DNA from: Dongshaea marina
Lineage (GTDB): Bacteria > Pseudomonadota > Gammaproteobacteria > Enterobacterales > Aeromonadaceae
Length of the DNA: 64,000 nucleotides
Direction of reading: 5' to 3'
Assembly: GCF_003072645.1 (NCBI RefSeq)
Contig: NZ_CP028897.1
Coordinates: 2,865,658 to 2,929,657 of the forward strand
In this document: in pieces, positions 5,753-43,818 of the stretch
Numbering within the stretch: the stretch's first letter is position 1
Layout of the letters: every line of letters starts with the position of its first letter
Notes under the pieces: generated by a model
Database searches by the model: none
What the model was told of the DNA's origin: nothing
What the model saw: only the letters and a program-made list of their open reading frames with translations
Made by a program: the position numbers and the translations under genes

Positions 5753-6034
5753 TCATAGTTATGGTTTTAATCATCTCTATTTCAACACAACCCAGAGGGA
5801 TATGAGCTCTTTATGGAACTCATCCCTCCCTTGAAGTAAAGCACAATCCGGGCCGATTTGTTTCGACAAAGAGCCGGTTCCCGTTCAAAATTTGAACTCA
5901 ATCGCATCCAGCTCAAACCGTATTTGCCACTGAGGATTTTTTCTTCCCGAAAAGGTTGATCGGATGAGCTCTCGTCAATCGGAAAAAGCTGTGACAAAAT
6001 CAAAAATACCTCCCCACAAAGGGCAAAGAGCGCG
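5753..6034. other. Intergenic region between divergent genes
   Basis: These 282 bases separate the minus-strand lipid operon from the plus-strand TfoX-N gene and should hold both promoters. I see no convincing operator or hairpin. A 73-codon minus-strand frame inside it has no recognisable features. Confidence 0.4.
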
Positions 6035-6367
6035 ATGGCATACGATCAGGGATTAGCACAACGAGTCCTCGAATATTTTGAGAGCCGCCTGGATCTCGAA
6101 ACCAAAAAGATGTTTGGCGGCCTCGGCTTTTTGATTGTCGGAAATATGTGTTGTGGTGTTGTCGGGGATAAACTGATGGCCCGGGTCGGACCGGATGAGT
6201 ATGAAGCCTGCCTCAAGATGCCCCATGTGGCTGTCATGGATTTTACCGGCAAATCGATGAAGGGCTTTGTGTATGTATTGCCCGAGGGCCTGGAAGACGA
6301 TAGTGACCTGGCCTTCTGGCTTGGTAAATGTGAAGACTTCATCAACACTCTAACTCCCAAGCTCTAA
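6035..6367 (+). CDS. TfoX N-terminal domain protein
   Basis: A 110-residue protein matching the TfoX N-terminal family by its opening pattern: a helix, then KKMFGGLGFLIVGNMCCGVVGDKLMARV and a C-terminal FWLGKCEDF helix. Full-length TfoX/Sxy proteins (~200 residues) regulate competence and have an additional C-terminal domain, which is missing here. Stand-alone TfoX-N proteins are common and their function is unknown. The gene is single, facing away from the lipid operon, with a DUF4345 membrane protein 110 bases downstream. I would not infer competence control from this domain alone. Confidence 0.8.
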   Translation: MAYDQGLAQRVLEYFESRLDLETKKMFGGLGFLIVGNMCCGVVGDKLMARVGPDEYEACLKMPHVAVMDFTGKSMKGFVYVLPEGLEDDSDLAFWLGKCEDFINTLTPKL

Positions 6368-6482
6368 GGCTCTAAGGCTCTGTTGATATTTAAAGTGAAC
6401 TAATTTAGCTTCAATAGAAGAAAGGAAACCGGCAGGATGAAATGAATTTCGGCGTAACATTCGAAACCTTAAAGGAGCAGTG

Positions 6483-6863
6483 ATGATAGATAGCATACTG
6501 CAAGGCCTGGTAGGGCTAAGTTGCTTGTTTTTGATCGGGCTGGGCGCAAAAACCATGTTTGCCCCAAAATCGATGTTTGGAATTCTTGGCATCGAAGCCC
6601 AGGGGGCCACCGGTCTCAACAGCATTCGCGGTTTTCTCGGTGGCCTGTATCTTGGTAGCTCAATCTTGCTCGCCGCAGGGCTCGCAACAGGCAACACCTT
6701 GTTTTTTCTTGCCGTCGCAACGACTATGGGAACCGCTGTCATTGGCCGACTCGTCGGTATTGCGATGGATGGTTTAGATAAAAAAGTGATCGCCCCGCTG
6801 ATCGCAGAGATTGTCATGGTCACCATTTTTATCACTGCCCACTTACAATTGGGGCTTGCTTAA
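6483..6863 (+). CDS. DUF4345 family membrane protein
   Basis: About 126 residues, almost entirely hydrophobic, with four predicted membrane segments near residues 4-22, 44-66, 70-90 and 100-122. The pattern with RGFLGGLYLG in the second segment and a short polar loop near MDGLDKK fits the DUF4345 family of small inner-membrane proteins. A GTG at 6480 is also in frame, but AAGGAG at 6472-6477 is spaced five bases from the ATG at 6483 and only two from the GTG, so I chose the ATG. Function is unknown and the neighbours give no pathway. Confidence 0.7.
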   Translation: MIDSILQGLVGLSCLFLIGLGAKTMFAPKSMFGILGIEAQGATGLNSIRGFLGGLYLGSSILLAAGLATGNTLFFLAVATTMGTAVIGRLVGIAMDGLDKKVIAPLIAEIVMVTIFITAHLQLGLA

Positions 6864-8131: not shown

Positions 8132-9568
8132 ATGAAAAGGTCATACCAATCGAACCAGCTCCCTGAAATAAATGAAATTATTTCAGAAGTCGAGATGAGC
8201 GATTATATCCATGGTGATTTTATCCTGAGGGGACAGGATCCAATCATTCGCTCTCCCCATCGTTTAGGTTACGCAAGCGCTGTTGCTCAGGGTGCTAACT
8301 CACTACTGGCAGGGATGATTTGGCATGCCAGAACCGGTCACCACCTAACGGCTTCAATGCCTATAGAGAGTGCACTAAACTATCTTCATTACAGCCATTA
8401 CACAAAGCAAAATGGCTTCCCGATGCAAGTAGGTGCCGAAACTGTCAGCGTCAATTCCTACTTTAAATGTAAGGATGGCAGAGCTATTCACACCATTGCA
8501 GGCCCTCCATACATGAAGCTTCTCAATGGCTACCTGGATTTCTTTGATTGTGGCAATAGCAGAAAACGTATTGCTGAAGAAGTTGCAAAGTGGAACTCAT
8601 TTGAGCTTGAAGAGGCACTGGCAAAGGCGGGACTTCCGGCTTGTGTCGCACGCTCAAAGCAAGAGTGGTTAATGCACCCTGTGGGGAAAGCGCTCAATAA
8701 AAGACCTCTTATCTCTATTGAACACATTCATGAAGGTGAAGCTGTTCCTTACTCACCACAGCCGCAAGAAATTCTGGATGGAATCAAAGTTATTGATTTT
8801 ACACATGTTCTTGCAGGGCCCATGCTAGGACAAAACTTGGGGCGATTCGGAGCTGAGACACTTCATATTTCCAGCCCTAAGCACCCTGATACATTAGCGC
8901 AAAACCTTATCACAGGATTTTGTAAACGGAATGCTTATTTGGATTTACATGATCATGAGCATCTTACAAAAATGAAAGAGCTCATGGCTGAGGCCGATGT
9001 ATTTATCAACTCATATCGTCCCGGGATCCCTGATCGCTTTGGATTGGATGCAGCTCAAGTGGCTTCAATGAGCCCAAAAGGGATCATCTATGTTGATATC
9101 AGTTGCTACGGTCACGAGACTCTCTGGAGTGACAGGCCCGGTTTTGAAACAATTGGTCAGGCATGCTCCGGATTTTCAGTTGCAGAGGGCACATTTGATG
9201 ATCCCAAATTCTCACCCGTTTTTTATTTAAACGATCCCTTAACCTCATTCCATGCCCTGAGCGGTGTCTTGGCTGCACTGCATAAAAGAGCATTATTTGG
9301 TGGCTCCTACCATGTGAAGGTCTCCCTAGCAAAGACTGGCATGTGGGTCACTGATCTGGGACTGTTAGAGGATGACAAATACAAAGACTGCCCTAAAGAG
9401 GATATCCATCAGCCTGAGACCAAAGAGATCGAAACCGTTTATGGGAAAATTACCCGGCTGGCTCCCTGCTACCAATTTAATGAGCTAAGGCTACCGGAAG
9501 AAAAGCCCGTAGAACCATTTGGTGCAAGCACACCAAATTTCGAGCATGTCTCAGACCCGATGTCATGA
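8132..9568 (+). CDS. Family III CoA-transferase (CaiB/BaiF type) with permuted domain order
   Basis: A 478-residue CoA-transferase-like protein preceded by a strong AGGAGG ribosome site. The classical family front half, starting DGIKVIDFTHVLAGP with RPGIPDRFGLD, does not begin until about residue 213. Residues ~46-190 look like the rear half of the same fold (GANSLLAGMIWHARTGHH, then YFKCKDGRAIH and an AGLPACVARSKQEW segment). The order is therefore rear-front compared with CaiB or Frc. Family III enzymes move CoA between carboxylic acids through an aspartyl intermediate; I could not place that Asp confidently. The gene is divergent from a LysR regulator and has no co-directional partner nearby, so the acid substrate cannot be deduced. 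Confidence 0.8.
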   Translation: MKRSYQSNQLPEINEIISEVEMSDYIHGDFILRGQDPIIRSPHRLGYASAVAQGANSLLAGMIWHARTGHHLTASMPIESALNYLHYSHYTKQNGFPMQVGAETVSVNSYFKCKDGRAIHTIAGPPYMKLLNGYLDFFDCGNSRKRIAEEVAKWNSFELEEALAKAGLPACVARSKQEWLMHPVGKALNKRPLISIEHIHEGEAVPYSPQPQEILDGIKVIDFTHVLAGPMLGQNLGRFGAETLHISSPKHPDTLAQNLITGFCKRNAYLDLHDHEHLTKMKELMAEADVFINSYRPGIPDRFGLDAAQVASMSPKGIIYVDISCYGHETLWSDRPGFETIGQACSGFSVAEGTFDDPKFSPVFYLNDPLTSFHALSGVLAALHKRALFGGSYHVKVSLAKTGMWVTDLGLLEDDKYKDCPKEDIHQPETKEIETVYGKITRLAPCYQFNELRLPEEKPVEPFGASTPNFEHVSDPMS

Positions 9569-9634
9569 TGGATTTCAAATAATACCAATCACCTTTTCGT
9601 ACACTTACACCGACCGAGGAAAATTGCCCCTTCG

Positions 9635-9829
9635 TTGGATATAAAAGCCGCGGGTCAGGAGGTGCCTCCCGACCCGCACAAACCTATACCCTCCCCAGCT
9701 CCTGGGCAGGCTCCACCGTACTGGCGAGAAAAGCCGGATACAGGGTGGCGATCAGGCTCATCAACAGCACACAACCACTGACAATCGCCCCCCAAATGCA
9801 TCTGGGATGGGATAAAGTCGATAAAATAG
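9635..9829 (-). pseudogene. Detached, diverged copy of the lolE 3' end
   Basis: These ~195 bases repeat the end of lolE and its terminator at 10949-11148. The first ~150 bases are nearly identical and include the stop region and hairpin. After the motif ACAATCGCC the copies differ by substitutions and small indels, then similarity fades at about 9829. Only the last ~50 codons of lolE are represented. With the intact lolE end 1.3 kb away, the two copies bracket an accessory segment like a direct repeat left by insertion at a gene 3' end, or by a segmental duplication. Confidence 0.75.
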
Positions 9830-9926
9830 ATCAAACTTTATTGCCTTTCGACAGAAATCCGCCCTTTCCTGGAGCTTTTGTTTTGGAGGTAAATCAGGAC
9901 TATTCAGGAAGGAGGGTAGTTTATTT

Positions 9927-10325
9927 TTATCCACCCCTTAATTTACTACAGATGGCCCTTAAGAGTTCATGCGTTATGATATCTGGCGTTATTTTTCCAT
10001 CGTTAATATTGCTAAACTGTGGGACTACATCAGAACCATAAGGGCAGCCAGGACCTTTATCCCAAACCGGCTTGTTTCCAATGGGATATTCCTTGATTAT
10101 CCCATGCCTATACTCACATATCTCTTTACCGTTATGGTCTAGCAGTGGATTGCAGCGATAGAAGTGAAGAGTCAAGACACCTTCACTTGTAACATATACC
10201 CCCACACCATCGTCACCACGCTGAATCGCTTTCGAAACCAGCTTTTCAATTTTTGTTCTGCTTGAGTAAATCCTATCGAAGTCTACTTTCATACAGATAA
10301 GACTCATAGAGCTATCAATGGTCAT
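9927..10325 (-). CDS. Hypothetical protein in the lolE-flanked insert
   Basis: A 132-residue frame with no family I recognise. It contains a mixed alpha/beta composition, five cysteines, and a C-terminal half rich in Gly and Pro (GNKPVWDKGPGCPYGSD, then a DGKITPDIITHELLRAICSKLRGG helix). The ATG at 10325 has no clear ribosome site; an internal Met at 10307 is an alternative start. It lies alone inside the 1.3 kb segment bounded by the two lolE 3' copies and has lower GC content than the lol genes, which fits acquired DNA. It could be a small cargo protein, but nothing visible assigns a function. Confidence 0.45.
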   Translation of the reverse strand: MTIDSSMSLICMKVDFDRIYSSRTKIEKLVSKAIQRGDDGVGVYVTSEGVLTLHFYRCNPLLDHNGKEICEYRHGIIKEYPIGNKPVWDKGPGCPYGSDVVPQFSNINDGKITPDIITHELLRAICSKLRGG

Positions 10326-10948
10326 AGGTAATTATAGCTACTCGCCTGCCTTAGGCAGCACAATCAAAACTCGAAAGCCCATTAAGACTTGGAGCAGCAG
10401 ATTTACGATGCGGCTCAGATATCAGCAGGATATGCCAGGCCTCAGCTTAAGGCTTGATACTGAGCTGTGACTTTTGTGAGCGAACGGACATTTGATTTTC
10501 TATTCATGAAGGGAAAATCACAAAGCTCTTTGCAAATAGAATCGGTTTAGTGAGATTTATATATGGGCAAACCCCTTTAAGCGATATCGGATATCTCTCT
10601 AAAGCTAGATTGACGTTCATTCATTGCGATATTCGCTACCACGCGATACCAAGTATGACTCAAAGCTGTGTTCGCTAAGGCGACAAAACGCTGTCCACCA
10701 CAGGTTGAATCTAACTTAATTATTGAGAATTAATTTCTTCGAGGCAAGATGCCGAGCTGGGAGGATGGCCAGGGATGGTTATCATCGAGCTTGGGAGATG
10801 TATCAGGGATGATAAATACGATGCGCGGGGCAAGTTTTTGATTACTTTTGGCGATACAAAAATAATGTGCCGTCGGCATCCCGACACATGTTGCGCAGCC
10901 ACAAAATCGAGCAGCATGCCCTGCAGAAAAATCCGCAGATAATCATAC
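10326..10948. other. Gene-poor remainder of the insert
   Basis: About 620 bases with no gene I can support. A 65-codon minus-strand frame (10720-10917) has no ribosome site or recognisable motif. No integrase, transposase or tRNA-like sequence is visible. The base composition is lower in GC than flanking genes. It may be decayed accessory DNA. Confidence 0.4.
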
Positions 10949-10963
10949 GTGGATATAAAAGCC

Positions 10964-10991
10964 GCGGGTCAGGAGAAGCCTCCTGACCCGC
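10964..10991 (-). terminator. lolCDE operon terminator
   Basis: A perfect 12-base-pair stem (GCGGGTCAGGAG / CTCCTGACCCGC) with a 4-base loop immediately follows the lolE stop. On the minus strand it is followed by GGCTTTTA. A slightly altered copy of the hairpin (one A-C mismatch) is present at ~9650-9676 in the detached lolE end. Confidence 0.8.
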
Positions 10992-10997
10992 ACAAAA

Positions 10998-12245
10998 CTA
11001 TACCCTCCCCAGCTCCTGGGCAGGCTCCACCGTACTGGCGAGAAAGGCCGGATACAGGGTGGCGATCAGGCTCATCAACAGCACACAACCACTGACAATC
11101 GCCACATCTCCCAGGTGCAGCTGGGATGGGATAAAGTCAATAAAGTAGATGTCCGGATTGAGAAACTGGTGGTTAATCAGGTGCTGAAACGCGCTCGACA
11201 GTGGCGTCAGATACCAGGAAAACAACACCCCAAGACCAACACCGATCACACAGCCTATGATGCCATTGACCATCCCCAGGACCATGAAGGTCACGCGTAT
11301 TCGCCACTGGGTCAGCCCCAGGGTACGCAAGATGGCGATCTCTGAGCGTTTATCATTAACCGCCATCACCAGGGTCGAGACGATATTGAAACAGGCGACC
11401 GCCACCAGCAGCAACATGATGAGGTAAAGGATGGTCCGCACCATCTGGATATCCTGATAGAGATAACCCTGAGCATTCATCCAACTTGAGACATAAAAGG
11501 GCACACCCAGACCCATCGCAGCCTGTTTAGTGAGCTGCTCCGCCTCAAAGATATTATTCACCCTCAGGGTGAACCCCTGGATCTTGTCCTGCCACCCCAG
11601 CAGGCGCTGAGCATCCTTGAGGTGAATAAAGCCCAGCAGGTTATCCAGTTGCCCGCCAATCGACAGCAACCCAGCCACCCGGAACCGCACCGTCTTGGGA
11701 GAGAGAATTCGCGAGCTATTCTCCCCCATCTGTGGCAACAGCAGGGTCACATAATCCCCCACCTTGAGCTTTAGCTTGTGGGCAATCCCGGCTCCGAGGA
11801 TCAGATCGTCTGCTCCCGGTTTGAGGGCCTGCCAACCCTTGCCACTCATGAAGTGTCCCGCATCCGAGATCCCCTGCTCATCCTGTGGCAACACGGCCCT
11901 CAGTTGCACCGCCTTGAGCTTAGCGCCATTTTGCAGCAAACCGTTAAGCTTGATATCCGGAGCCACCGCCGTGATCCCAGGCTTGGCCGCCAGCTGCTTC
12001 ATCAAAGGCTGCCAGTTGCCTATGGGAGGGGCCATCGCCTGCAGCTCTCCCTGGGGGATCACCATTAGCACTCGCTGGCGCAGCTCCTTCTCAAAGCCGT
12101 TCATCGCCGACAGGCAAACGATCAACACCATCACCCCCAGTGCAATCCCCAGCACCGAGGAGCGGGCAATAAACTGGGTAAAACCACTCTTGCCCCGCAA
12201 CCGGCTAAATCGCAGCCCGAGTCTGAAAATCAGCGAGGGGCTCAT
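10998..12245 (-). CDS. lolE: Lipoprotein-releasing ABC transporter permease LolE
   Basis: A 415-residue FtsX/MacB-type permease. It has one N-terminal membrane helix (~residues 25-48, IARSSVLGIALGVMVLIVCLSAMNGFE), a large periplasmic domain of ~220 residues, and three C-terminal helices with the conserved NDKRSEIAILRTLGLT coupling loop. In the LolCDE complex it extracts outer-membrane lipoproteins from the inner membrane and passes them to LolA. It is the last gene of lolC-lolD-lolE, its ATG overlapping the lolD stop by four bases. The last ~50 codons exist a second time at 9635-9829. Assignment as LolE rather than LolC rests on gene order and sequence flavour. Confidence 0.9.
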   Translation of the reverse strand: MSPSLIFRLGLRFSRLRGKSGFTQFIARSSVLGIALGVMVLIVCLSAMNGFEKELRQRVLMVIPQGELQAMAPPIGNWQPLMKQLAAKPGITAVAPDIKLNGLLQNGAKLKAVQLRAVLPQDEQGISDAGHFMSGKGWQALKPGADDLILGAGIAHKLKLKVGDYVTLLLPQMGENSSRILSPKTVRFRVAGLLSIGGQLDNLLGFIHLKDAQRLLGWQDKIQGFTLRVNNIFEAEQLTKQAAMGLGVPFYVSSWMNAQGYLYQDIQMVRTILYLIMLLLVAVACFNIVSTLVMAVNDKRSEIAILRTLGLTQWRIRVTFMVLGMVNGIIGCVIGVGLGVLFSWYLTPLSSAFQHLINHQFLNPDIYFIDFIPSQLHLGDVAIVSGCVLLMSLIATLYPAFLASTVEPAQELGRV

Positions 12246-20836: not shown

Positions 20837-21817
20837 TCAGCAATGATCCTGCTCGACAAACCAGCGAAGTAGTAGTTGATCCATCCAGCGCAACTCCCGC
20901 CCCTGGGTCGGCAGGGCCATAAAACCCATGTGCCCTCCCAGCTCAGTCAAAAGCAGATCCAGCTGTGGATTATTAAGGCCGGACAGGACGCGGTTATCCA
21001 CCACAGGATCGTCCCTGGAGCCCAGCAGCAGGGTCGGTACCCGGATCTGTGGCATGAGTGGCAGAGCCGAAGCCTTGTGGTAATAATCCTCGGCACTCTC
21101 AAACTGGCAGCTGGGGGCGGTAAACTTCTCATCAAAGGCATAGATCCCATCGATGCTATGCCAGTCAAAGGTTGTATCCTGTTTCATCAATTGCTTAGCC
21201 AATGCAACCAGTCGCCGGGTAAAATAGGGATCAAACAGAGGGCCATGCTGGCGAACCCACTGCGAACAGGCAAGCAGATCGACCGGGGGAGAGATCGCGA
21301 CAAGTGAGTGCAGCGGGCACTGCTCCCCCTCTTCCCCCGCCATTTTTAGCGCGGTATTTGCGGTCAGGGAAAAGCCAATCAATGATATCGCCATTGCGGG
21401 ATAGATACTCTGTAATCGAGCTATGATCTGTCTTAAATCCTCGCTGCGTCCGGCATGAGCGATACCGCTTGCCAGGTGAGCTGCCGGGCCGGCACAACGC
21501 ATGTTGACCCGAAACACCGGGTAACCCAGCGCCACCAGCTTACGAGCGAGACGACTTAAGTAACCGGAGCGATAATCGCCGGTTAGCCCATGCACCATGA
21601 CGACCAGGTGATCGCGCATGCTCTGATCGGGCCAGTTCTCACAGATAAATAGCCGATCCCCATCGCTGAGCCTTAAATTCAGCCAGCTATCAGGTTTGAG
21701 GTTTATTTTTTGTGGCCAGTAGGATGCCGCTATGGTCTGCCCGTAACAGGAGTGCAGCCCCGGCAGGGGCTCGAAAGAGGGAACCGCCAGACGCTTCAGA
21801 AGCTCACAATCACCCAT
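20837..21817 (-). CDS. YheT-like alpha/beta hydrolase
   Basis: A ~326-residue alpha/beta hydrolase of the YheT/EMB8 type. The strand-loop MVHGLTGDYRSGY is the oxyanion region, the nucleophile elbow is LIGFSLTAN (GxSxT rather than the common GxSxG), the acid lies in GSRDDPVVD, and the His in GGHMGFM. The frame is open to a TTG at 21871, but the ATG at 21817 (MGDCELLKRLAVPSFEPLPG) matches the family better. Substrates of this family are poorly known; short-chain esterase activity has been reported for relatives. It is convergent with the antiporter gene and 19 bases downstream of the first binding-protein gene on the same strand, allowing co-transcription. Confidence 0.8.
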   Translation of the reverse strand: MGDCELLKRLAVPSFEPLPGLHSCYGQTIAASYWPQKINLKPDSWLNLRLSDGDRLFICENWPDQSMRDHLVVMVHGLTGDYRSGYLSRLARKLVALGYPVFRVNMRCAGPAAHLASGIAHAGRSEDLRQIIARLQSIYPAMAISLIGFSLTANTALKMAGEEGEQCPLHSLVAISPPVDLLACSQWVRQHGPLFDPYFTRRLVALAKQLMKQDTTFDWHSIDGIYAFDEKFTAPSCQFESAEDYYHKASALPLMPQIRVPTLLLGSRDDPVVDNRVLSGLNNPQLDLLLTELGGHMGFMALPTQGRELRWMDQLLLRWFVEQDHC

Positions 21818-21889
21818 AGGCTGACATCCGGGCGGTAATGCGTTTTTTTCTGTAGCAGGCCAAAGGGGCAACTGTGACTCGGATCAAAG

Positions 21890-22870
21890 CTAGTCCACAA
21901 ATTTTGCTTTAGAGACTATGGATGCCGGCAGGTTGGTTCGCCACTTTTTCAGCTGAGTGCGGCTAAAAAGATAGTAGCCTTTTTCAGCGGTTCTGGGACT
22001 GATCCGGCTGGGAGCCTTTCCTGCAAGGATCTCCCTGGCAATTGCAGCGGCCTCTTTCCCCTGCTCATAGCCCGAAAGTACCATGCCGCCGAGCGCCTTA
22101 TCTGCTCCAACCTCAAAATCCCAGAAGGCAAAAGGTGGGATCGGCGTATGCTCCGAGGTCCAGCGGATCACCTTCTCTGCCGGAACATGCAGCCCCTCAT
22201 CATCGATCAGGGTGTGATAGAGGCCAATCACCATCACATCGTAGTGCTTATTGGCCTCAAGTACCGTCTCCTGCCAAACACTCCAGTCGCCGATAAATTT
22301 CAATGAGATCTTAAGCCCCAGTAGCTTTATCTCACTGCGTCCCTGGAACACCTCCTGGGAAGACGCCTGAGAGGTAGTTCCCGAATCAAACAGCACCAGC
22401 ACGGACTCTGTGTTTGGATAGGTGCGACGAATATCTACAATCGCCCGCTTTAACAAAGGGCGCTCCAGAACGCCGGTAATATTGCGCCCCAACGGAATAT
22501 AGTCACGGGGATTATTATTGATGCCGAGGTAAACCACCGGGGTGCTGGTTTCAATCAGCTTAGGGCCAAGGTAATTGAGCGCGTTATCATCCCCCAGCAC
22601 CACCAGCACAGGTTTAAGCTCCTGATATTTTTTCCAGGCCAGATCGGCACGCTTCTCATAGAGGGATTTAGGCAAGCGTTTGGTATCCATCTCAAAATAA
22701 TTCAGTTGATACTCCTTGCCCAGGTACTCCTGAAGCGCTTTTTTGTAGCTTTTATCCCAGGGGTATCCGTCATGATAACTCTCAATCACCAGGATCGCCG
22801 GCTTGTCCGCAAAACAAGCGCCTGTCCACAAACCCAGGACAAGGGAGATCAACACTATCCATAGTCTCAT
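21890..22870 (-). CDS. Periplasmic substrate-binding protein, paralog 1 of 4
   Basis: A 326-residue exported protein with signal peptide MRLWIVLISLVLGLWTGACFA. It belongs to the ABC_sub_bind type (PF04392-like) with a two-lobed fold. Shared cluster motifs are VIESYHDGYPWDKSY near the N-terminus, FEMDTKR, VVLGDDNALNYLG, LGINNNPRDY, TGVLERPLLKR, and FAFWDFEVGADK. The four cluster members are clearly homologous but diverged. No permease or ATPase gene is near, so the protein may serve a distant transporter or present ligand to a sensor. The gene diverges from paralog 2, with 123 bases between them. The ligand is unknown. Confidence 0.8.
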   Translation of the reverse strand: MRLWIVLISLVLGLWTGACFADKPAILVIESYHDGYPWDKSYKKALQEYLGKEYQLNYFEMDTKRLPKSLYEKRADLAWKKYQELKPVLVVLGDDNALNYLGPKLIETSTPVVYLGINNNPRDYIPLGRNITGVLERPLLKRAIVDIRRTYPNTESVLVLFDSGTTSQASSQEVFQGRSEIKLLGLKISLKFIGDWSVWQETVLEANKHYDVMVIGLYHTLIDDEGLHVPAEKVIRWTSEHTPIPPFAFWDFEVGADKALGGMVLSGYEQGKEAAAIAREILAGKAPSRISPRTAEKGYYLFSRTQLKKWRTNLPASIVSKAKFVD

Positions 22871-22894
22871 CGCGCTATCCTTTTACCCTTTCGC

Positions 22895-22915
22895 CTCCAG
22901 ATGGATGCTCTGGAG
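22895..22915. promoter_or_regulatory. Inverted repeat between divergent binding-protein genes
   Basis: A perfect 7-base inverted repeat (CTCCAGA / TCTGGAG) with a 7-base spacer lies in the 123-base gap between paralogs 1 and 2. It could be an operator for coordinated control or a leader hairpin. I do not recognise the motif. Confidence 0.35.
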
Positions 22916-22993
22916 TCAACTGAAAACTGGGAAAATTGAACCCTGGATACTATAAGGTTAATGATACTTGGCCAAAATGAAAGGAATCACCCC

Positions 22994-23983
22994 ATGCGAT
23001 CATTCACTACCCTATTAGGTGCCCTGTTGCTGACTCTGTGCTGGGGAGTCGCCTCGGCAAAGTCTGTACTGGTTATCGAGAGTTACCATGCCGAATATCC
23101 CTGGGATGCCAGCTATATGGAAGGGCTTAAAAAAGAGCTGGGCTCAGGCTTCAGTATTAGTAGCTTTGAGATGGATACCAAGCGGGTTCCCAAATCTGAG
23201 TATCAGGCCAAGGCCGATGCAGCCTGGGCTGAGTATCAGAAGATGAAGCCGGACCTGGTGGTACTGGGCGATGATAACGCTCTTAAGTTCCTGTTCCCGA
23301 AGTTTAAAGAAACCCAGACCCCGGTGGTCTTTCTTGGGATCAACTCCAACCCACGGGATCTGAAAATCAGCAGCGCAAAAAACTTTACCGGCGTGCTGGA
23401 GCGTCCCCTGTTCAAGCGCTCGGTGGCCGAGCTTAAGAAAATCTTAAAACCTGCCCCCAAAAAAATGATGGTGCTGTTTGACTCAGGTAATACCTCCAAG
23501 GCCGCGGTTGCCAAGTTGTTTGCCGGTCAAACCTCGACCAAGATTGCCGGTGTCACCGTTGATCTCAAGCTCATCGGTAAGCTGGATGATTGGAAAAAGA
23601 CCGTCAGCAGTGCCAAGGCCGATGGTTATGATGCCATCATAGTTGGTCTCTACCACACCCTGGTGGACTCCGCCGGTAAACATGTTCCGGCAGGTGAGGT
23701 GCTGAGCTGGACCTCCAAGGATACTCCGGTTCCTGTCTTTAGCTTCTGGGACTTTGCGGTCGGTGCCGATAAGACCGCTGGAGGCCTGGTGCTGTTTGGC
23801 CAGATCCAGGGAGAGGAAGCCGGTAAGCTGGTGAAGAAGATCCTGGTCGATGGCGCATCACCAAGCAGCCTCAAGCCACAAGCCGCCGAGAAGGGACGTT
23901 TCCTGTTTAGCAAGGCTCAGCTGGCTAAGTGGAAGATTACCCTCCCCGCCTCTATTGAGAAAAAAGCAAACTTCACTGACTGA
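22994..23983 (+). CDS. Periplasmic substrate-binding protein, paralog 2 of 4
   Basis: A 329-residue protein. The ATG at 22994 follows AAAGGAAT and gives a good signal peptide, MRSFTTLLGALLLTLCWGVASA; the frame also opens 33 bases earlier. It shares all cluster motifs: VIESYHAEYPWDASY, FEMDTKRV, VVLGDDNALKF, LGINSNPRDL, TGVLERPLFKR, LFDSGNTS and GLYHTLVDSAGKHVPAGEV. It is more Lys-rich than its neighbours. A strong hairpin follows the stop. It is probably the most highly expressed copy, judging by the ribosome site and terminator, but that is inference. The ligand is unknown. Confidence 0.8.
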   Translation: MRSFTTLLGALLLTLCWGVASAKSVLVIESYHAEYPWDASYMEGLKKELGSGFSISSFEMDTKRVPKSEYQAKADAAWAEYQKMKPDLVVLGDDNALKFLFPKFKETQTPVVFLGINSNPRDLKISSAKNFTGVLERPLFKRSVAELKKILKPAPKKMMVLFDSGNTSKAAVAKLFAGQTSTKIAGVTVDLKLIGKLDDWKKTVSSAKADGYDAIIVGLYHTLVDSAGKHVPAGEVLSWTSKDTPVPVFSFWDFAVGADKTAGGLVLFGQIQGEEAGKLVKKILVDGASPSSLKPQAAEKGRFLFSKAQLAKWKITLPASIEKKANFTD

Positions 23984-23994
23984 TATCCATATCT

Positions 23995-24026
23995 TTTCTC
24001 GCAAGACCTTTGGGTCTTGCGAGAAA
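23995..24026 (+). terminator. Hairpin terminator after binding-protein paralog 2
   Basis: A perfect 14-base-pair stem (TTTCTCGCAAGACC / GGTCTTGCGAGAAA) with a TTTG loop lies 12 bases after the stop. The A/T-rich base of the stem substitutes for part of the missing T-tract, and bidirectional function is possible. Confidence 0.65.
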
Positions 24027-24087
24027 TCACCTCTATGATCATCCCTGAGCTATCCTTAATCCAGGAGCCATCATCTCAGAGCCATGT

Positions 24088-25086
24088 ATGGGAGTCCTCA
24101 CCCGCGTTATCTGTCTTGCCATCTGCCTGCTGCTTCCGGGGGCAACCAATGGCCAGGTAAAGCACCGGGTATTGGTCATTGAAAGCTATCACGCCGAATA
24201 CCCCTGGGATGCCAGCTACAAGGAGGGACTTCAATCTGAGCTCGGCTCCGACTACCAGCTTGATTTCTTCGAGATGGATACCAAGCGGCTTGCCCGCGAG
24301 CGCCATCTGCAGCGAGCCAATGCCGCCTGGGAGCACTACCAGCAAACAAAGCCTGATCTGGTGATCCTGGGAGATGATAATGCGATCCGCTTTCTCGGGC
24401 CTTTGCTGGCACAAAACTCGGTCCCTGTGGTTTATCTTGGGCTCAACAATAATCCCAGGGATTACAGCATCTATGGTGCACCTAACATCACAGGGGTGCT
24501 TGAGCGCCCGCTGATCAAACGCTCCATCGCTTCGGCCAGCCAGTTCTTTACTCCTCACCCCAAACGGATATTGCTGCTGTTAGACAGTGGCCAAACCTCG
24601 GAGACTATTTACAAGGAGATTTTCAATGACCAGCCCAACAATACCTTCTTAAAGATCTCGGTGGATGTCCGGCTGGTCGGTAGCTGGGAGCGTTGGCAAA
24701 AACTGGTCAAACAAAGTAAAAAACAGGGTTATGACCTGCTATTTGTCGGCCTGTTTCACACCCTGCGCAATCATCAAAATCAACACATCCCGGCTCAGGA
24801 GGTGCTTCAATGGACCTCAACCCATACACCTATCCCTCCCCTGGGGTTATGGGATTTTGCCGTTGGCAAAGATAAAACCATCGGCGGGTTGGTACTCTAT
24901 GGCAAGGAGCAGGGGATCACCGCGGCCTGGATCGCCCGGCAGATCCTGGAGCAGGGAGTCTCTCCCGGCAAAATTCACCCGGTTCCGGCCGAGAAGGGGC
25001 GCTATCTGTTTAGTCGATCCCAGCTGGAAAAATGGAATACCAAACTGCCTGATTTCATCGAAACAAAAGCCCAGTGGGTCGATTGA
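24088..25086 (+). CDS. Periplasmic substrate-binding protein, paralog 3 of 4
   Basis: A 332-residue exported protein with signal sequence GVLTRVICLAICLLLPGATNG. The family motifs VIESYHAEYPWDASY, FEMDTKRLAR, VILGDDNAIRFLG, LGLNNNPRDY, TGVLERPLIKR and LLLDSGQTS are all present. The region equivalent to GLYHTLVD reads GLFHTLRNHQNQHIPAQEV, so it has diverged at a likely ligand-facing loop. It lies downstream of paralog 2 on the same strand but is separated from it by a hairpin. No transporter partner is encoded nearby. The upstream AGGAG is ~20 bases from the ATG, so the start is not certain. Confidence 0.78.
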   Translation: MGVLTRVICLAICLLLPGATNGQVKHRVLVIESYHAEYPWDASYKEGLQSELGSDYQLDFFEMDTKRLARERHLQRANAAWEHYQQTKPDLVILGDDNAIRFLGPLLAQNSVPVVYLGLNNNPRDYSIYGAPNITGVLERPLIKRSIASASQFFTPHPKRILLLLDSGQTSETIYKEIFNDQPNNTFLKISVDVRLVGSWERWQKLVKQSKKQGYDLLFVGLFHTLRNHQNQHIPAQEVLQWTSTHTPIPPLGLWDFAVGKDKTIGGLVLYGKEQGITAAWIARQILEQGVSPGKIHPVPAEKGRYLFSRSQLEKWNTKLPDFIETKAQWVD

Positions 25087-25273
25087 TGGCGAATACCTTT
25101 CATGAAAGAAATGTGATCGGCTTGCTGATCATCCATGAGTCATTTGGGCCACGCAGCAAGTACATCCATGTATGCTCGATGCCAGCATCCATGCTGACAA
25201 CGGGCTAAATCACTCACAGATTATCCAAATCAGTGCAAGTCACATTCTGATCACCTAACTATTGGGATTGGTA

Positions 25274-26338
25274 TTACTCGACGAATTTAGCCTTGCGCGC
25301 GATCTTATCCGGAAGTTTAATGTTCCACTTTTGTAGCTGCGAGCGGCTAAACAGGTAATAGCCTTTTTCGGCGACCTTAGGCGAAACCGACGCAGGATCC
25401 ATCCCATTTAGGATCTTTTTGGCCAGCACCCCGGCGGCTATCCCCTGCTCATAGCCGGATAGCACCATGCCGCCTACGGTTCGCTCCCTGCCGACCGCAA
25501 ATCCCCATAGCCCAAACAGAGGTAACGGCGAATGCTGTGAGCTCCAACGGATCACCTCTTCTGCCGGAACGTGTTGCCCCTGCTGATCAACCAGGGTGTG
25601 GTAGAGACCTATCACTATGGCATCGTAATGCTTCTTGGCATGACGGACTATGGTCTGCCATGACTCCCAGCGGCCGATATAGCGCACCGTCACCTGGGTA
25701 TTGAGAATGGTCACCTTACTCTCCCCCTCCATCACCTCATTGGCGATGATCCGCGAGGTCACACCTGAATCGAACAACAGCAGGATCCGCTCCACACCGG
25801 GAACCAGACGCCGCAGCTCGGCGATAGAGCGCTTGATCAGCGGACGCTCTAAAATCCCCGTTATGTTGTAGCCGATCGGGATATAGTTACGGGGGTTGTT
25901 GTTGATCCCTAAAAACACCGTTGGCGTCCCGGATTGAATCAACCGGGTCCCCAGGTAGCGCAAAGCATTGTCATCCCCGAGGATCACCAGATCAGGCTTG
26001 ATCTTTTTATATTCAGCCCAGGCAGCATTGGCACGTTCTACGTAGCGTGTTTTATGAACCCGCTTGGTATCCATCTGAAAATTAAAAAACTGAACCTCAT
26101 CGGCCAATACATGTTCCAGGCCACGCTTGTAATCCTGATCCCAGGGGTAACCATCATGATAACTCTCGATCACCAGTACCTTGGGCTTATCTGGGACTGA
26201 CGCGGCAAAAGCACCACAGGAAAAGAGAAACAAGGGGATCAGCAACAAACAGCAACCAAGGGATCGAGGATAGAACGCCGATCGCAAGTTTCCCCACAGC
26301 CCTCTCAGGCTCATCACAGTAGCAGCCCTAGTTTGCAT
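25274..26338 (-). CDS. Periplasmic substrate-binding protein, paralog 4 of 4
   Basis: A 354-residue protein, longer than its paralogs because of the N-terminus. A basic stretch precedes a hydrophobic signal core, CCLLLIPLFLFSCGAFAAS; an internal ATG at 26314 would give a shorter version. Motifs VIESYHDGYPWDQDY, FQMDTKRVHK, VILGDDNALRYLG, LGINNNPRNY, TGILERPLIKR, LLFDSGVTS and GLYHTLVDQQGQHVPAEEV are conserved. It is closest in appearance to paralog 1 (shared YHDGYPWD and YFLFSRS/QLKKW-like ends). It points toward the other three and ends 187 bases from paralog 3. The ligand is unknown. Confidence 0.78.
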   Translation of the reverse strand: MQTRAATVMSLRGLWGNLRSAFYPRSLGCCLLLIPLFLFSCGAFAASVPDKPKVLVIESYHDGYPWDQDYKRGLEHVLADEVQFFNFQMDTKRVHKTRYVERANAAWAEYKKIKPDLVILGDDNALRYLGTRLIQSGTPTVFLGINNNPRNYIPIGYNITGILERPLIKRSIAELRRLVPGVERILLLFDSGVTSRIIANEVMEGESKVTILNTQVTVRYIGRWESWQTIVRHAKKHYDAIVIGLYHTLVDQQGQHVPAEEVIRWSSQHSPLPLFGLWGFAVGRERTVGGMVLSGYEQGIAAGVLAKKILNGMDPASVSPKVAEKGYYLFSRSQLQKWNIKLPDKIARKAKFVE

Positions 26339-26379: not shown

Positions 26380-27120
26380 TTATAGGGAGTTAAACTCCTC
26401 GATATGCGAATGACCGCGCATCTTGAGAAAATCGAGCAGAGCCCTGGGCGAACGGGCCAGTAACCGCTCCTCGGGAAAGCCCGCGAGCTTTACCAAACGA
26501 ATGCAATGCTCAAAGTCTCCCAGGGTAAACGCCACATGGGAGTCGGAGCCAAAGCTCAGATAGGCACCGAGATCCCGCGCCAGCTCAACCACCCTCAAAC
26601 AGTTGGCCTCACTCCCCTTTCGCGAGTGGATAAACGAAGAGTTATTGATCTCAAGGGCTACCTGGCTCTGGGCCGCCGCGCTGATCACAGCCTCTAAATC
26701 AACCGGATAGGCGGGGTTTCCAGGATGGGAGATGATATCAACCCGCCCGGAGCGGATCGCCGCTATCATGGCCCGGGTATGACTCTTGGGATCCCTCGGA
26801 GGAAACACGGTTTCATGAAAGCCGGCCATCACCAGATCAAGCTCTTTAAGATAGCTGTCCGCAAGATCGATCTCGCCCTGCTCATTTTTGATATTGGCCT
26901 CAATCCCGCGCAAGATCCCAACACCATTGACCACTCTTGGCAGGATCCGCATATTCACAAAATGCCAGGGATGAGGCGCATCCTGCATCTCGGGTCCGTG
27001 ATCGGTAATCGCGAAAAGCTTGATCCCTTTTTGTGGTGCAACCGCCAGGTAATCGTGCAGGGTGCTATAGGCGTGGCTGCTAGCCACCGTATGAGTGTGA
27101 GTATCGACCGAAAAGTGCAT
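26380..27120 (-). CDS. PHP-domain phosphatase, YcdX family
   Basis: A 246-residue PHP-fold metal-dependent phosphoesterase. Metal-binding motifs are DTHTHT at the N-terminus, AITDHGPEM, the Glu of [25 protein letters not shown], and the C-terminal FGSDSHVAF. The order matches E. coli YcdX, a trinuclear-zinc phosphatase. The ATG at 27120 is preceded by GGAG nine bases upstream; an in-frame TTG at 27138 is less likely. The natural substrate of this family is not settled. It lies alone on the minus strand downstream of a small outer-membrane-like protein gene. Confidence 0.88.
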
Positions 27121-27213
27121 GAGGGCTCCGGGTTCCAAGAATTTTTCTCACAATACCAGCTCGCCCCAAGGCGAGTCACTACACCACTAAGGATATTATG
27201 CCCGAGGCAAAGA

Positions 27214-37947: not shown

Positions 37948-38260
37948 TCAATCCCCCAATTGTAAAATCATCTCATGATAACAGGATAAATCCACCGGTG
38001 AGCTTATTAAGCAATGTTTAAACCTCTACTGAGACTACAAAATTTTACGAAATTGAGAGCTGACTCATTTGACTACATTTGATGGCTTCGGTACCCTGCG
38101 CGCGGCTGGGTTTCGGGAGACCAAACTCCCATTTTTGATAGAAGCCCACCTCATTAACGCTCGGTTTTAAAAATCAAGCGCCAGCAACTCCTTAAACAAT
38201 CTATAATTTTTTCTAGACACAGCTGAAGCCGTGACTGTCACCAGGATCAGGATAACAGGA
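37948..38260. promoter_or_regulatory. Leader region of the type I secretion operon
   Basis: A 313-base divergent gap that must carry the promoter for the lapB-like operon. It has a hairpin-plus-T sequence at 38115-38136 (GGGAG / CTCCC followed by ATTTTTG), which would act as a weak terminator inside a leader. An overlapping alternative pairing (TGGG / CCCA) could form instead. I do not recognise a riboswitch consensus. Confidence 0.35.
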
Positions 38261-40414
38261 ATGCATGAACATCAAGAGTCCCGAAACGTTGTCGACCCGC
38301 TACTCGAGTGCTTGTGGTGGATAAGCCGTCGCTTTGGTGCTGTTTGCAGCCGCGAATCGCTGCTCGCTGGCCTGCCTCTTCCTGAAGGAAGACTCACCGC
38401 TAGTTATTTTCCCCAGGCCGCTATTCGGGCCGGCCTCAGCTCGCGAGTCTTTGATAAAAAACTAACCGATCTTGATCCGGAGCAACTTCCCTGTATTTTA
38501 CTGCTCGGCAAGCAGACCGCCTGTGTACTGATGGAGCTTGATCTTCAAAAACAACAAGCCCGGGTGATGATGCCCAGTAAGAACTCGGGAGAGATCTGGA
38601 TCGAACTTAGCGAGCTGGAGAAGGATTACCAGGGAAACCTGTTTTTTCTCAAGCAGGAGTTTCGTTATGATCAACGCTCCCCTGATCTCAAGCTCTCAAA
38701 ACATGGTCACTGGTTTTGGAGCGTGATTTTCCGTTCTATCCCCATCTATGCTGATGTTCTCTATGCCTCATTGCTGATCAATATTTTTGCCATCGCAGCG
38801 CCACTGTTTACCATGAACGTCTATGACAAGATAGTTCCCAACCTTGCATTTGAATCGCTGTGGGTGCTGGCGATCGGGGCGGCTGTGATCTTCCTGTTTG
38901 ACTTTGTGATCCGCCAGCTTCGAAGCTACTTTATCGATGTCGCAGCCAAAAAATCCGATGTCATCCTCTCTGCCGAGATCTTTTCCAAGGTGATGCGTAC
39001 CCGGCTGGAGTCTCGCCCCATCTCGACCGGGGCCTTCGTCCGCCATCTCCAGGAGTTCGAGTCGATTCGTGAGTTTTTCACCTCAGCAACCATCACCTCT
39101 CTGGTGGATTTTCCCTTTGCCCTGCTATTCCTGTTCGTGATCTGGCTGTTTGCCGGTAGCATGGTGTTGATCCCGATCACTGGAATCGCAATTCTCATCA
39201 TCTACAGCTTCCTGATCCAGGCGCCTCTACAGCGCAGTGTTGAAGAGGGAAGTCGTCTCGCATCACAAAAGCATGCCAACCTGGTGGAGAGCGTCTCAGG
39301 AATTGAAACCGTTAAGCTGTTGGGCGCCGAAGGTGTCTTCCAGTTTCGCTGGGAGCAGGCCGTCAACCATATGGCTAACTGGGGCACCAAGACGCGTAAG
39401 ATCACCACCTCGGTCAGTGCCACCGCCAGCTATATGCAGCAAATGATTACTGTCTCCTTGATTGTCTATGGCGTTTATCTGCTGGCCAATGGTGAGTTGA
39501 GCATGGGGGGGATCATCGCCTCTGTGATGCTGGGCTCACGGGCGATCGGCCCCATGGTTCAGCTATCGGTTCTCTCCACCCGTTATAACCAGGCCAAGTC
39601 GGCTCTGAAGATCCTCAGTCAAATCATGGAACTTCCCGAGGAGCGCGAATCCTCTGACAAGGTGACCAACCCCATCATCAAGGGCAATGTGGAGTTCACC
39701 GACGTATCCTTTGTCTACCCCGGAAGCGATGCCAAATCGGTCAACCACCTCAACCTTTCGATCCGTGCAGGTGAAAAAATTGGCATTATCGGACGGATCG
39801 GTGCAGGTAAAAGCTCACTGATGCGTCTGTTAAGTGGACTCTATCAGCCTACTGAGGGCTCCATCTATCTCGATGGGATCGATATCCAACAGTTTCCTGA
39901 GAGCTTCCTGCGGCGTAATGTTGGTTGCATGCCCCAGGATATCACCCTGTTTTTCGGCTCAATTCGTGACAATATCTGCCTGGGACAACCTTGGATCGAT
40001 GATGAAACCATTCAAAGAACCGCCATTCGCTCCGGAGTTGCCGAGTTTGCCATGCGCGATCCAAACGGACTGGAGCGACAGGTTGGAGAGGGAGGACGCA
40101 ACCTGTCCGGAGGCCAGAAGCAGACCATCGGCCTAGCCCGAGCGCTGCTTCATGATCCACCGGTTCTGATTTTAGACGAGCCAACTTCGGATATGGATTT
40201 TCGAAGTGAGATCCAGGTCAGAGAGTCATTGAAGAAACTCAACTCCAAACAGACCATGTTGCTGATCACCCACCGCTCCTCCATGCTGGAGCTGGTTGAT
40301 CGCATTCTGGTTTTTGATAACGGGCGGTTGGTTGCAGATGGTCCCAAAGAGGAGGTCATGCAACAGCTAAGTGAGGGTAAAGTGCGAGCGCCGATGCAAG
40401 GAGACTCTCAGTGA
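38261..40414 (+). CDS. Type I secretion ABC transporter (LapB-like)
   Basis: A 717-residue exporter with fused ATPase and membrane domains. The first ~130 residues are a C39-peptidase-like domain without the catalytic Cys/His arrangement, as in LapB/HlyB, where it docks substrate. Six helices follow (residues ~150-430), then the ATPase: Walker A GRIGAGKSS, signature LSGGQKQTIGLARAL, Walker B LILDEPTSDMD and switch TH. It would export the giant adhesin encoded on the opposite strand at 45.5-56.7 kb. The ATG at 38261 has AGGA nine bases upstream; an in-frame GTG at 38231 is possible. The stop overlaps the adaptor gene (GTGA). Confidence 0.9.
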   Translation: MHEHQESRNVVDPLLECLWWISRRFGAVCSRESLLAGLPLPEGRLTASYFPQAAIRAGLSSRVFDKKLTDLDPEQLPCILLLGKQTACVLMELDLQKQQARVMMPSKNSGEIWIELSELEKDYQGNLFFLKQEFRYDQRSPDLKLSKHGHWFWSVIFRSIPIYADVLYASLLINIFAIAAPLFTMNVYDKIVPNLAFESLWVLAIGAAVIFLFDFVIRQLRSYFIDVAAKKSDVILSAEIFSKVMRTRLESRPISTGAFVRHLQEFESIREFFTSATITSLVDFPFALLFLFVIWLFAGSMVLIPITGIAILIIYSFLIQAPLQRSVEEGSRLASQKHANLVESVSGIETVKLLGAEGVFQFRWEQAVNHMANWGTKTRKITTSVSATASYMQQMITVSLIVYGVYLLANGELSMGGIIASVMLGSRAIGPMVQLSVLSTRYNQAKSALKILSQIMELPEERESSDKVTNPIIKGNVEFTDVSFVYPGSDAKSVNHLNLSIRAGEKIGIIGRIGAGKSSLMRLLSGLYQPTEGSIYLDGIDIQQFPESFLRRNVGCMPQDITLFFGSIRDNICLGQPWIDDETIQRTAIRSGVAEFAMRDPNGLERQVGEGGRNLSGGQKQTIGLARALLHDPPVLILDEPTSDMDFRSEIQVRESLKKLNSKQTMLLITHRSSMLELVDRILVFDNGRLVADGPKEEVMQQLSEGKVRAPMQGDSQ

Positions 40415-41805: not shown

Positions 41806-41880
41806 TTAGAAGAGAGGACTCTTCAGGTTTCGTGTTGCAAGACCCCAAAGGAAGATGGGAACTGGATGGATGGAGACACG

Positions 41881-43818
41881 ATGACACTTAATAAGAAGCT
41901 ACTGATCATTACCTCTGTGATCCTGCTGCTGCTGCTGGCCATCGGATTTTTTGTCCAATGCAAAATGTTGCAGTTCGAGCATCAGCAGCAACAACGAGTG
42001 TTGCTCAATAAGAGTACCCAATTTATTAAGGTCGCTCTGATCCCCTATATTGAGATTGGCGATACCCAGGGGATTGAGGGAACACTGGATGTGATCTTTG
42101 ATGGCAAATACCATCAGAAGATAGAGATCACCACCTTCCCTCTGGATGAGATCTTTACCCGAACCAGCCGGCTCACCAGCTCACAGGCCCCGGCATGGTT
42201 CACCGGGCTAGGCTTGTTCCCACAGCTTACGAGTCAAGCCAGTGTCATGGTTCACTCCGAGGCCTTTGGTGATTTTGAGGTGGGCCGTGTCGAACTCACC
42301 AACAATCCTGCTTCAGCCTATAATGAGCTCTGGGGCGAGGTCTCCAAGCTGTTTATTCTGTATCTGACCACATTTATTGTCTGTGTTGTGCTGTTTTTTA
42401 TCATCTATAACCTTAACTTCCGCTCCCTCATCCGCCTGAGAGACAGTGCTATCCGCTGTCAGAAAAGTAATGATGGCTCCAATATTGAGCTCCCTAAGGA
42501 GTCTGATCTCAAACCTATTGCCCAAACCATCAATGCATTAAGCACTCAGCTCAAGGTGTATCTGGATGGCAAGTCCAAGCAGATCGAAGATCTCTACAAG
42601 ATGGCTTATGAAGACAGCACCTCTGGCCTTGGCAACCGCGACTACTTTATCAGTCAGGTCAAGGAGTGGATCGCCGAGGATGGTGTGGGTGGCATGATGA
42701 TCATCTCCATCGATATTCTGGATGAGATCTATCAAAAAGATGGCTTCATGGCCCGGGATCAGTTCCTCAAATCAATTGGTGAGACACTTCAGCTGCAACT
42801 CAAACCCTATGATCGCCATGAGGTGGCTCGCTTCTCGGATACCGAGTTTGCCATCTTGATCCCGGGGGTGAATCAACAGGAGCTGCTCAATATAGCCGAA
42901 AATCTTAACGGGAATATCTCCAACATCTTGGTCAATCCCCTGAGTGCTCCCCGGATTATATCCACCATAGGTGCCGCGATGCGCACCGATCAGGAGTCTC
43001 TTCCTGAGCTTCTGAGCACAGCCGATCAGGCCCTGCTCAAGGCACGGATGGATCACCTGGAGATCTACATCAAGGAAGACAAGTCACAGGAGCAGCTCGG
43101 GCGCTTTGAGTGGAAGAGGATCATTGAGACGGCGATAAACCAGCAACAGATCCACTTCTATATTCAGCCGGTGTTCGCCATCGATCAGAAAACCCGGCTG
43201 CATACTGAGCTATTTAGCTACATCGATGATGGTCAGAAAACCTATAGCGCTGGTGAATTCATGCCCGCGGTGGAGCAGTTCCGCCTCGGAGATAAGCTGG
43301 ATCAGCATATTCTTGAACATCTGATCCCGCTTTTAGAAAGCCACCCCGAGATGAATTTTGCACTCAACTGGTCACGGACCGCGATTACCAATGAAAAATT
43401 CTGTGCCTGGATCATCCAAACCCTGATTCAGAACAAGGGGTTAGCAAAACGCTTGTGCTTCGAGATCCAGGAGTCGGTACTACTCAAGGCATCGGATAGG
43501 ATCCAAAATACTCTTGAGGAGCTCAGAGCCCATGGCTACATGTGGGGAATCGATCAATTTGGTCGCCACCTTCATGCCACCGACTACCTGAAGCGACTCC
43601 ATCCGGACTATGTGAAGATAGACCATACCTTCACCAAGATGCTGGTCAAGGATATCAATGATACCACCTGCCTCTCCGCCATCTGCGATATCGCCCATGG
43701 GGCTGGAGCCAGAGCCATTGTGACTCAGATTGAGAGCCAGGCTGTGCTTGATAGCCTCAAAGGCTTGCCCATCGATGGCTACCAGGGGTATATCAACCCA
43801 CCCCACCCTTTAAAATAG
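41881..43818 (+). CDS. LapD-like c-di-GMP receptor with degenerate GGDEF and EAL domains
   Basis: A ~645-residue inner-membrane protein. Its order is membrane helix (LNKKLLIITSVILLLLLAIGFF), a periplasmic LapD/MoxY-type sensor, a second helix (~residue 165), a HAMP-like linker, GGDEF and EAL. The GGDEF site reads RFSDTEFAIL and the EAL site HTELFSY, and the late catalytic motif is YQGYINPP, so both enzymatic sites are degenerate, as in LapD. LapD binds c-di-GMP with its EAL domain and sequesters the protease LapG, keeping the adhesin on the surface. It lies 75 bases after the adaptor gene, and a terminator follows. The start could instead be the ATG at 41866. Confidence 0.9.
   Translation: MTLNKKLLIITSVILLLLLAIGFFVQCKMLQFEHQQQQRVLLNKSTQFIKVALIPYIEIGDTQGIEGTLDVIFDGKYHQKIEITTFPLDEIFTRTSRLTSSQAPAWFTGLGLFPQLTSQASVMVHSEAFGDFEVGRVELTNNPASAYNELWGEVSKLFILYLTTFIVCVVLFFIIYNLNFRSLIRLRDSAIRCQKSNDGSNIELPKESDLKPIAQTINALSTQLKVYLDGKSKQIEDLYKMAYEDSTSGLGNRDYFISQVKEWIAEDGVGGMMIISIDILDEIYQKDGFMARDQFLKSIGETLQLQLKPYDRHEVARFSDTEFAILIPGVNQQELLNIAENLNGNISNILVNPLSAPRIISTIGAAMRTDQESLPELLSTADQALLKARMDHLEIYIKEDKSQEQLGRFEWKRIIETAINQQQIHFYIQPVFAIDQKTRLHTELFSYIDDGQKTYSAGEFMPAVEQFRLGDKLDQHILEHLIPLLESHPEMNFALNWSRTAITNEKFCAWIIQTLIQNKGLAKRLCFEIQESVLLKASDRIQNTLEELRAHGYMWGIDQFGRHLHATDYLKRLHPDYVKIDHTFTKMLVKDINDTTCLSAICDIAHGAGARAIVTQIESQAVLDSLKGLPIDGYQGYINPPHPLK

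Follow-up and report, generated by a model that had tools for sequence, protein, structure and literature searches.

What is done by four adjacent, homologous binding proteins that lie beside no transporter is the question raised by a 64,000-nucleotide stretch of the Dongshaea marina genome (contig NZ_CP028897.1, positions 2,865,658 to 2,929,657; hereafter the window). An earlier note on this DNA described the proteins, here designated W1 to W4 (Table 1), as homologs in -,+,+,- order, and four reading frames, each open over its whole length, were found in that arrangement. The motifs YHxxYPWD, FxMDTKR, LGDDNA and ERPLxKR that the note had listed were all present in each of the four when the proteins were aligned. 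As it had also stated, no permease, ATPase or sensor gene adjoins the cluster, since the flanking genes encode an alpha/beta hydrolase and a PHP-domain protein. Pairwise identity among W1-W4 was 46-55% (51-56% to the first row of the four-protein alignment), and their hydrophobic N-termini, judged by eye, suggest that all four are exported. The facts assembled below are better explained by receptor subunits that present a ligand than by an orphan importer, and on balance W1-W4 are probably the periplasmic ligand-binding subunits of signalling receptors encoded elsewhere, and not of an importer.

Three of the four proteins (W1, W2 and W4) passed the curated Pfam cut-off of 25.9 bits for PF04392 (ABC_sub_bind), W3 had no Pfam match at E 0.001, and no enzyme family was among the Pfam matches of W1-W4. 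Against the TrpX equivalog model NF041285, which has a cut-off of 390 bits, W1, W2 and W4 scored 29.1, 34.3 and 32.5 bits and W3 gave no match. Of the four, W2 was modelled with AlphaFold2 from 70 aligned proteins (predicted local distance difference test 93.3, predicted template modelling score 0.87). The top fold matches of this model were 3lft, 3lkv, 6hni and 6hnj (Z 24.8-25.2, root-mean-square deviation 3.8-3.9 over 274-281 residues, 16-21% identity), after which the matches dropped to Z 18.2 and below, and the predicted fold of W2 is the two-lobed, TrpX-like one. The structures 3lft, 3lkv and 6hni were solved with tryptophan, phenylalanine and tyrosine bound, and 6hnj carries polyethylene glycol or is open.

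Two residues have been reported as setting selectivity in TrpX-like proteins (PMC6816091, available in part), namely Ala246/Tyr262 in VC_1101, Glu263/Tyr279 in CD0873 and Ala268/Gln284 in SP1069. A profile alignment mapped these columns to Trp263 and Gly280 of the W2 open reading frame (ORF), and by the same mapping both positions were replaced in all four window proteins, with tryptophan for alanine or glutamate and glycine for tyrosine or glutamine. Tryptophan and glycine were found at these columns in 55 and 57 of the 70 aligned proteins. Because both selectivity residues are replaced in all four, the ligand of W1-W4 probably differs from the aromatic amino acids bound by TrpX-type proteins. 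The divergence in ligand loops that had been proposed was not confirmed at these two pocket positions, the only ones compared, which are identical across W1-W4.

The neighbourhoods of relatives point to receptors. Forty-eight loci with a homologous ORF were examined, drawn from 37 fetched loci of named relatives together with stretches from the same genome and from further relatives; L067 and L047, where no homologous ORF was picked though searches report homologs there, and L083, a fragment, were left out. A receptor-type gene was adjacent in 22 of these loci, being a histidine kinase in thirteen (eleven Vibrio loci, L037 and L079), a chemoreceptor in seven (L043, L051, L052, L055, L057, L082 and L084) and a HAMP protein without an output domain in two (L056 and L059). 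Profile matches to kinases, CHASE5 or chemoreceptors were found in 20 of 94 adjacent genes compared with 8 of 175 genes at a distance of three to four places (Fisher p 4e-5, a value that ignores shared ancestry), which supports the alternative raised in the earlier note that such proteins act as ligand-presenting signalling proteins. By single distances, 4 of 92 genes matched at distance two, 6 of 90 at three and 2 of 85 at four. HATPase_c (13), CHASE5 (12), HisKA (10), MCPsignal (7) and HAMP (6) were counted among the 94 adjacent genes. When the homologs were grouped at 55% identity, a receptor was adjacent in 8 of 26 groups, present at distance three in 4 of 25 and at distance four in 2 of 24, with a group mean receptor rate of 0.14 for adjacent genes compared with 0.05 and 0.008 at distances three and four. 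The linkage to receptors is a real effect, carried in part by Vibrio. An earlier control set had been reduced by hand from 177 to 94 genes to remove redundant and truncated ones, and had lost among others the CHASE5 piece of L037 and the kinases in L054 and L057; it was not relied on, and the unthinned count was used because the thinning favoured the receptor reading. One candidate pair, in G342, was rejected as adjacent, the homolog (L164:5495-6514) and the CHASE5 protein (9199-11889) being split by what by eye is a helicase-like gene. At L044:8663-10159 (+) a homolog is divergent from a pair of genes that appear to encode a histidine kinase and, as judged by eye, a haem-NO-binding protein.

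A distant homologous domain, located by the family profile, was also found at the N-terminus of long proteins, several of which are cut at the end of the fetched stretch. All ten fusions that were scanned end in signalling outputs, so in these proteins the PF04392-like domain is used as the input of a signalling chain. Nine carry GGDEF (L026, L027, L028, L030, L032, L033, L092, L097 and L112), three of these also EAL (L032, L092 and L112), and one (L109) carries a HisKA/HATPase_c kinase output. Four further long ORFs, that of L094 and those in G408, G197 and G245, were outside the scan.

A different explanation is that W1-W4 feed a shared ATP-binding cassette (ABC) transporter encoded elsewhere in the genome, as the earlier note had also suggested. 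One permease serving several binding proteins is a known arrangement. PF04392 proteins with an adjoining permease and ATPase are importers; in Streptococcus suis, for instance, the TrpX gene shares a transcript with those of a permease and an ATPase (PMC9382623, in the portion available). TrpX-type proteins were found in 6 of 59 sampled genomes of the order, none above the TrpX cut-off; the trio of binding protein, permease and ATPase was present in three of five such loci inspected, and the permeases of these operons were BPD_transp_2 in all three scanned. In the D. marina genome (100% complete, 2.6% contamination, two contigs) a search confined to this permease family gave no PF02653 (BPD_transp_2) match, whereas 12 of 14 control genomes were positive. 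Nor did a profile search find a TrpY/TrpZ-like pair beside any of the genome's 13 PF04392-type proteins, and profiles from TrpX-type operon genes detected no adjacent permease and ATPase pair at any examined homolog locus, the nearest ATPase-like matches being at least three genes away and weak permease matches at least five. By these profiles nothing ties W1-W4 to a TrpX-type importer (TrpXYZ). The replaced selectivity residues likewise speak against a shared transporter, an explanation that we consider unlikely. In the stretches inspected, two other periplasmic binding proteins of this genome also had no neighbouring transporter: a Peripla_BP_4 protein at L036:8830-9702 (-) and one recognised by eye at L140:11018-12166 (+). 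At L054:6996-9760 (+) a homolog is flanked on both sides by SBP_bac_3 binding-protein genes, a further cluster that mixes binding-protein families and has no obvious permease.

Several observations weigh against the reading of W1-W4 as receptor subunits, and some of them favour a transporter. Two BPD_transp_1 permease genes, described as sugar-type ABC permeases, adjoin the close homolog of Saccharospirillum impatiens (L081; Pfam check). At L053, in Desulfamplus magnetovallimortis, the homolog has a tripartite ATP-independent periplasmic (TRAP) transporter as neighbour, and at L050 the neighbour is a sodium symporter. The earlier note had held that a partner permease next to a relative would count against its interpretation; L081 and L053 are two possible examples, the TRAP system having its own binding protein, DctP. 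L081 speaks for the proposal of a shared transporter, which is otherwise less supported given the absence of BPD_transp_2 and of adjacent TrpY/TrpZ-like pairs. On the side of the receptors, no kinase, chemoreceptor or HAMP protein was adjacent in 26 of the 48 loci, and there was none beside the homologs at any of the five loci examined in genomes of the host's family (L039-L042 and L046) or at three of the four other loci of the genome (L034-L036). No receptor gene adjoins W1-W4 themselves, and none of the genome's three CHASE5 genes is near them. The CHASE5 linkage comes mostly from Vibrio, chemoreceptors alone were not enriched (7 of 94 adjacent genes vs 3 of 94 hand-thinned controls, Fisher p 0.33), and the fused cousins are distant (77-108 bits). 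Two Pseudomonas neighbourhoods of kinase and binding-protein genes have been tested elsewhere and no interaction was found, according to the available sections of PMC11113362.

Those 26 loci, and the more general point that neighbouring kinase and binding-protein genes need not share a function (PMC11113362, same sections), favour yet another explanation, by which the proteins have some other periplasmic role, such as ligand buffering or a chaperone-like one, and the receptors found next to some relatives are there by coincidence. The recurrence of adjacent receptors across the homolog groups, the fusion of cousins to signalling outputs, the two-lobed binding-protein fold and Pfam matches without an enzyme family argue otherwise, and we hold this role to be rather improbable.

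Among the Vibrio loci, the binding-protein gene was divergent from a CHASE5 histidine kinase gene in 11 of 12 cases. The Vibrio binding proteins are 39-43% identical to W2, and the kinases are 644-655 amino acids long with one of 692; CHASE5 was matched at E 1.8e-27 in L073, which was scanned singly, and the other kinases were assigned by alignment and profile. In nine of the eleven loci the end of the kinase gene is met by the gene of a DUF3369-HD regulator, whose receiver domain was under the Pfam cut-off in seven and not listed in two, and a LacI-type gene takes the regulator's place in L069 and L074. HD and GYP motifs are readable in the L073 regulator. VCA0210 of Vibrio cholerae, which combines REC, DUF3369 and HD-GYP domains, is an active phosphodiesterase of cyclic di-GMP (PMC4212101, consulted in part). 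In the mechanism proposed for W1-W4, the two lobes of each protein would close on a small molecule, and the ligand-loaded form would dock on the sensor domain that an inner-membrane receptor exposes to the periplasm. The likeliest such receptor is a histidine kinase of the CHASE5 type, or else a chemoreceptor. In Vibrio the output would pass to the regulator with DUF3369 and an HD-GYP-type domain, and the response would run in the direction of cyclic di-GMP breakdown.

Candidate receptors for W1-W4 in this genome are a CHASE5 histidine kinase (L133) and a CHASE5 membrane protein that lacks a kinase and by eye stops after a coiled coil (L134). In a third place, L037, a tandem pair of homologs lies directly 3' of a CHASE5 kinase gene that is interrupted, with a transposase-like ORF at 5600-6490 (by eye). 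Among 369 sampled genomes of the class, homologs were present in 44 and CHASE5 in 36, and 11 had both, where about 4.3 would be expected by chance (hypergeometric p 0.001, rising to 0.003 when the D. marina genome is excluded; these values ignore shared ancestry). Within the family sample, CHASE5 was present in 14 of 14 genomes with a close homolog, and this was given no weight because it was also present in 16 of 23 without one. A model of CHASE5 (predicted local distance difference test 78.5) matched a WalK-YycH model (Z 10.4), CdgS9 (9.8), WalK (9.1) and CitA (about 8); it says little about docking, since ribosomal proteins scored close to the best matches (up to Z 8.5), and the lack of LuxQ and TorS among the 50 matches listed excludes nothing. 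A wider interpretation would be the complete conversion, in this lineage, of a transporter family to a receptor toolkit: the importer's permease family has no match in the genome, the binding proteins have expanded to nine (13 with the distant ones), and several of them, mutually exchangeable, would signal different molecules to a small number of CHASE5 receptors, one of them without a kinase, as a many-to-few periplasmic sensing array; we offer it as a speculation that is more likely wrong than right by a good way. At L135:4143-8028 (-) a distant PF04392 protein neighbours a kinase whose dCache match is sub-threshold and whose region reads in two ORFs.

The number of copies in this genome and their relationships bear on the origin of the cluster. 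Nine close paralogs are present, namely W1-W4, the single copies G5 (L034), G6 (L035) and G7 (L036) and the tandem pair G8 and G9 (L037), and four more distant PF04392 proteins bring the total to 13. Identity was 46-63% among six of the nine copies and 31-69% across all nine; W3 is 63% identical to G5, which lies about 775 kb away, and W1 is 57% identical to G7. The careful tree was built from 41 of 94 rows, distant and near-identical rows being omitted, and the 94-row tree was a quick version. In the 41-row tree W3 grouped with G5 (support 100/100) and W1 with G7 (98/88), W4 was sister to the W1 and G7 pair (98/97), and W2 was placed weakly with G6 (87/79) and then with the Vibrio proteins beside CHASE5 kinases (86/73). 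The earlier note had regarded the four as sister paralogs that arose by local duplication and had asked for a tree as the check, so the group of four put to the test was fixed before any tree was built. The approximately unbiased test rejected a clade of W1-W4, for which the log-likelihood was 124 lower, and the best partners of W3, W1 and, more weakly, W2 are copies outside the cluster, so a simple local sister duplication is not supported. By the same test a single clade of the seven close copies cost 5.3 log-likelihood units and was not rejected (p 0.37), and the copies may thus go back to an earlier expansion within the lineage, after which they were partly scattered or brought together. 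The count of nine and the unrejected clade of seven might also be taken as signs of duplication remnants, redundant copies of a dispensable family with no specialised function. All nine copies are intact and diverged, and each retains the family motifs in whole or in part; this is unlike recent redundancy, and such an explanation appears very improbable.

The features of the cluster and the CHASE5 genes are collected in Table 1. The start of W2 is probably at 22994 and not at the listed 22961, the ATG at the former having a purine-rich stretch upstream (by eye). A strong hairpin lies between W2 and W3, so the two genes on the plus strand may form separate units; it is a candidate, and possible, transcription barrier that was not listed by the terminator scan. 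A promoter scan gave no site compared with 3.7 expected in shuffles and was uninformative. A comparison with an empty site was impossible because the PHP and hydrolase genes are far apart or on separate contigs in five relatives that belong to a single genus of the host's family (G003, G007, G015, G018 and G036). The hydrolase matches there, at no more than 30-36% identity, are perhaps not orthologs. Elsewhere in the window, two abutting ORFs of 2725 and 1036 amino acids with Calx-beta repeats, at 45463-53640 (-) and 53637-56747 (-), resemble pieces of a single giant adhesin; one of the two contains a LapA domain and the other VWA. Encoded nearby are an ABC exporter that contains a peptidase (38231-40414) and a LapD-type protein (41866-43818).

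Table 1. Features of the W1-W4 cluster (window positions) and CHASE5 genes at other loci
Feature	Position	Strand	Length (amino acids)	Basis
Alpha/beta hydrolase, flanking gene	20837-21871	-		best NCBIfam match PRK10985, under its cut-off
W1, PF04392-type orphan binding protein	21890..22870	-	326	ORF; PF04392 35.8 bits
W2, PF04392-type orphan binding protein	22961..23983	+	340 (listed)	ORF; PF04392 41.7 bits
Hairpin between W2 and W3, 14 pairs and loop of 4	23995..24026	+		fold -24.1 kcal/mol, z -7.5
W3, PF04392-like orphan binding protein	24088..25086	+	332	ORF; aligns throughout with W1, W2 and W4
W4, PF04392-type orphan binding protein	25274..26338	-	354	ORF; PF04392 54.8 bits
PHP-domain protein, flanking gene	26380-27138	-		Pfam/NCBIfam scan
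CHASE5 histidine kinase, candidate receptor	L133:5579-7558		659	
CHASE5 membrane protein without kinase	L134:6474-7295	+	273	stops after coiled coil (by eye)
CHASE5 histidine kinase gene split by insertion sequence	L037:5058-7659	+		CHASE5 1.4e-16
Vibrio set, loci with CHASE5 kinase	L068, L069, L071-L078, L080			

For most bacterial receptors the signal has yet to be found, in part because the ligand can be held by a separate binding protein and not by the receptor (PMC11113362, sections as above). Should the PF04392 family be an input of CHASE5 receptors, it would supply concrete pairs for testing, as adjacent genes in Vibrio and as G8 and G9 with their kinase in D. marina, and the label "ABC transporter substrate-binding protein" should then be treated with caution as proof of an importer. 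This kind of mechanism is already known; its use by this family, the link to CHASE5 and the size of the expansion may be new within limited literature searches. These returned no paper pairing ABC_sub_bind with a histidine kinase, and the titles listed for CHASE5, in a limited search judged by title, were unrelated. In the passages available from PMC9602780, which counts 13 families as activators of receptors, PF04392 was named only in a methods list.

In comparison with known systems, W1-W4 resemble TrpX, CD0873 and VC_1101 in the PF04392 membership of three of the four and in the modelled fold of W2, and differ from them in lying far under the TrpX cut-off, in the replaced selectivity residues and in a genome where no match to BPD_transp_2 was found. 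In LuxP-LuxQ, TorT-TorS and NspS-MbaA a kinase or cyclase in the membrane is activated by a periplasmic protein that has bound its ligand, and W1-W4 are predicted to work by analogy with these; the binding proteins of those systems belong to other families, and the predicted partner of W1-W4 is not encoded beside them. A chain of the TorS-TorT complex, presumably TorT, was among the fold matches of W2 (Z 16.8, 253 residues, 3.7 A), which may serve as a precedent for the mechanism only. The PF04392-like GGDEF, EAL and kinase fusions likewise use a homologous domain as signalling input, but they are distant, one-chain receptors, whereas W1-W4 are separate subunits. The Vibrio proteins are of the same close family, and W2 groups weakly with them; there the receptor gene adjoins that of the binding protein, unlike at W1-W4.

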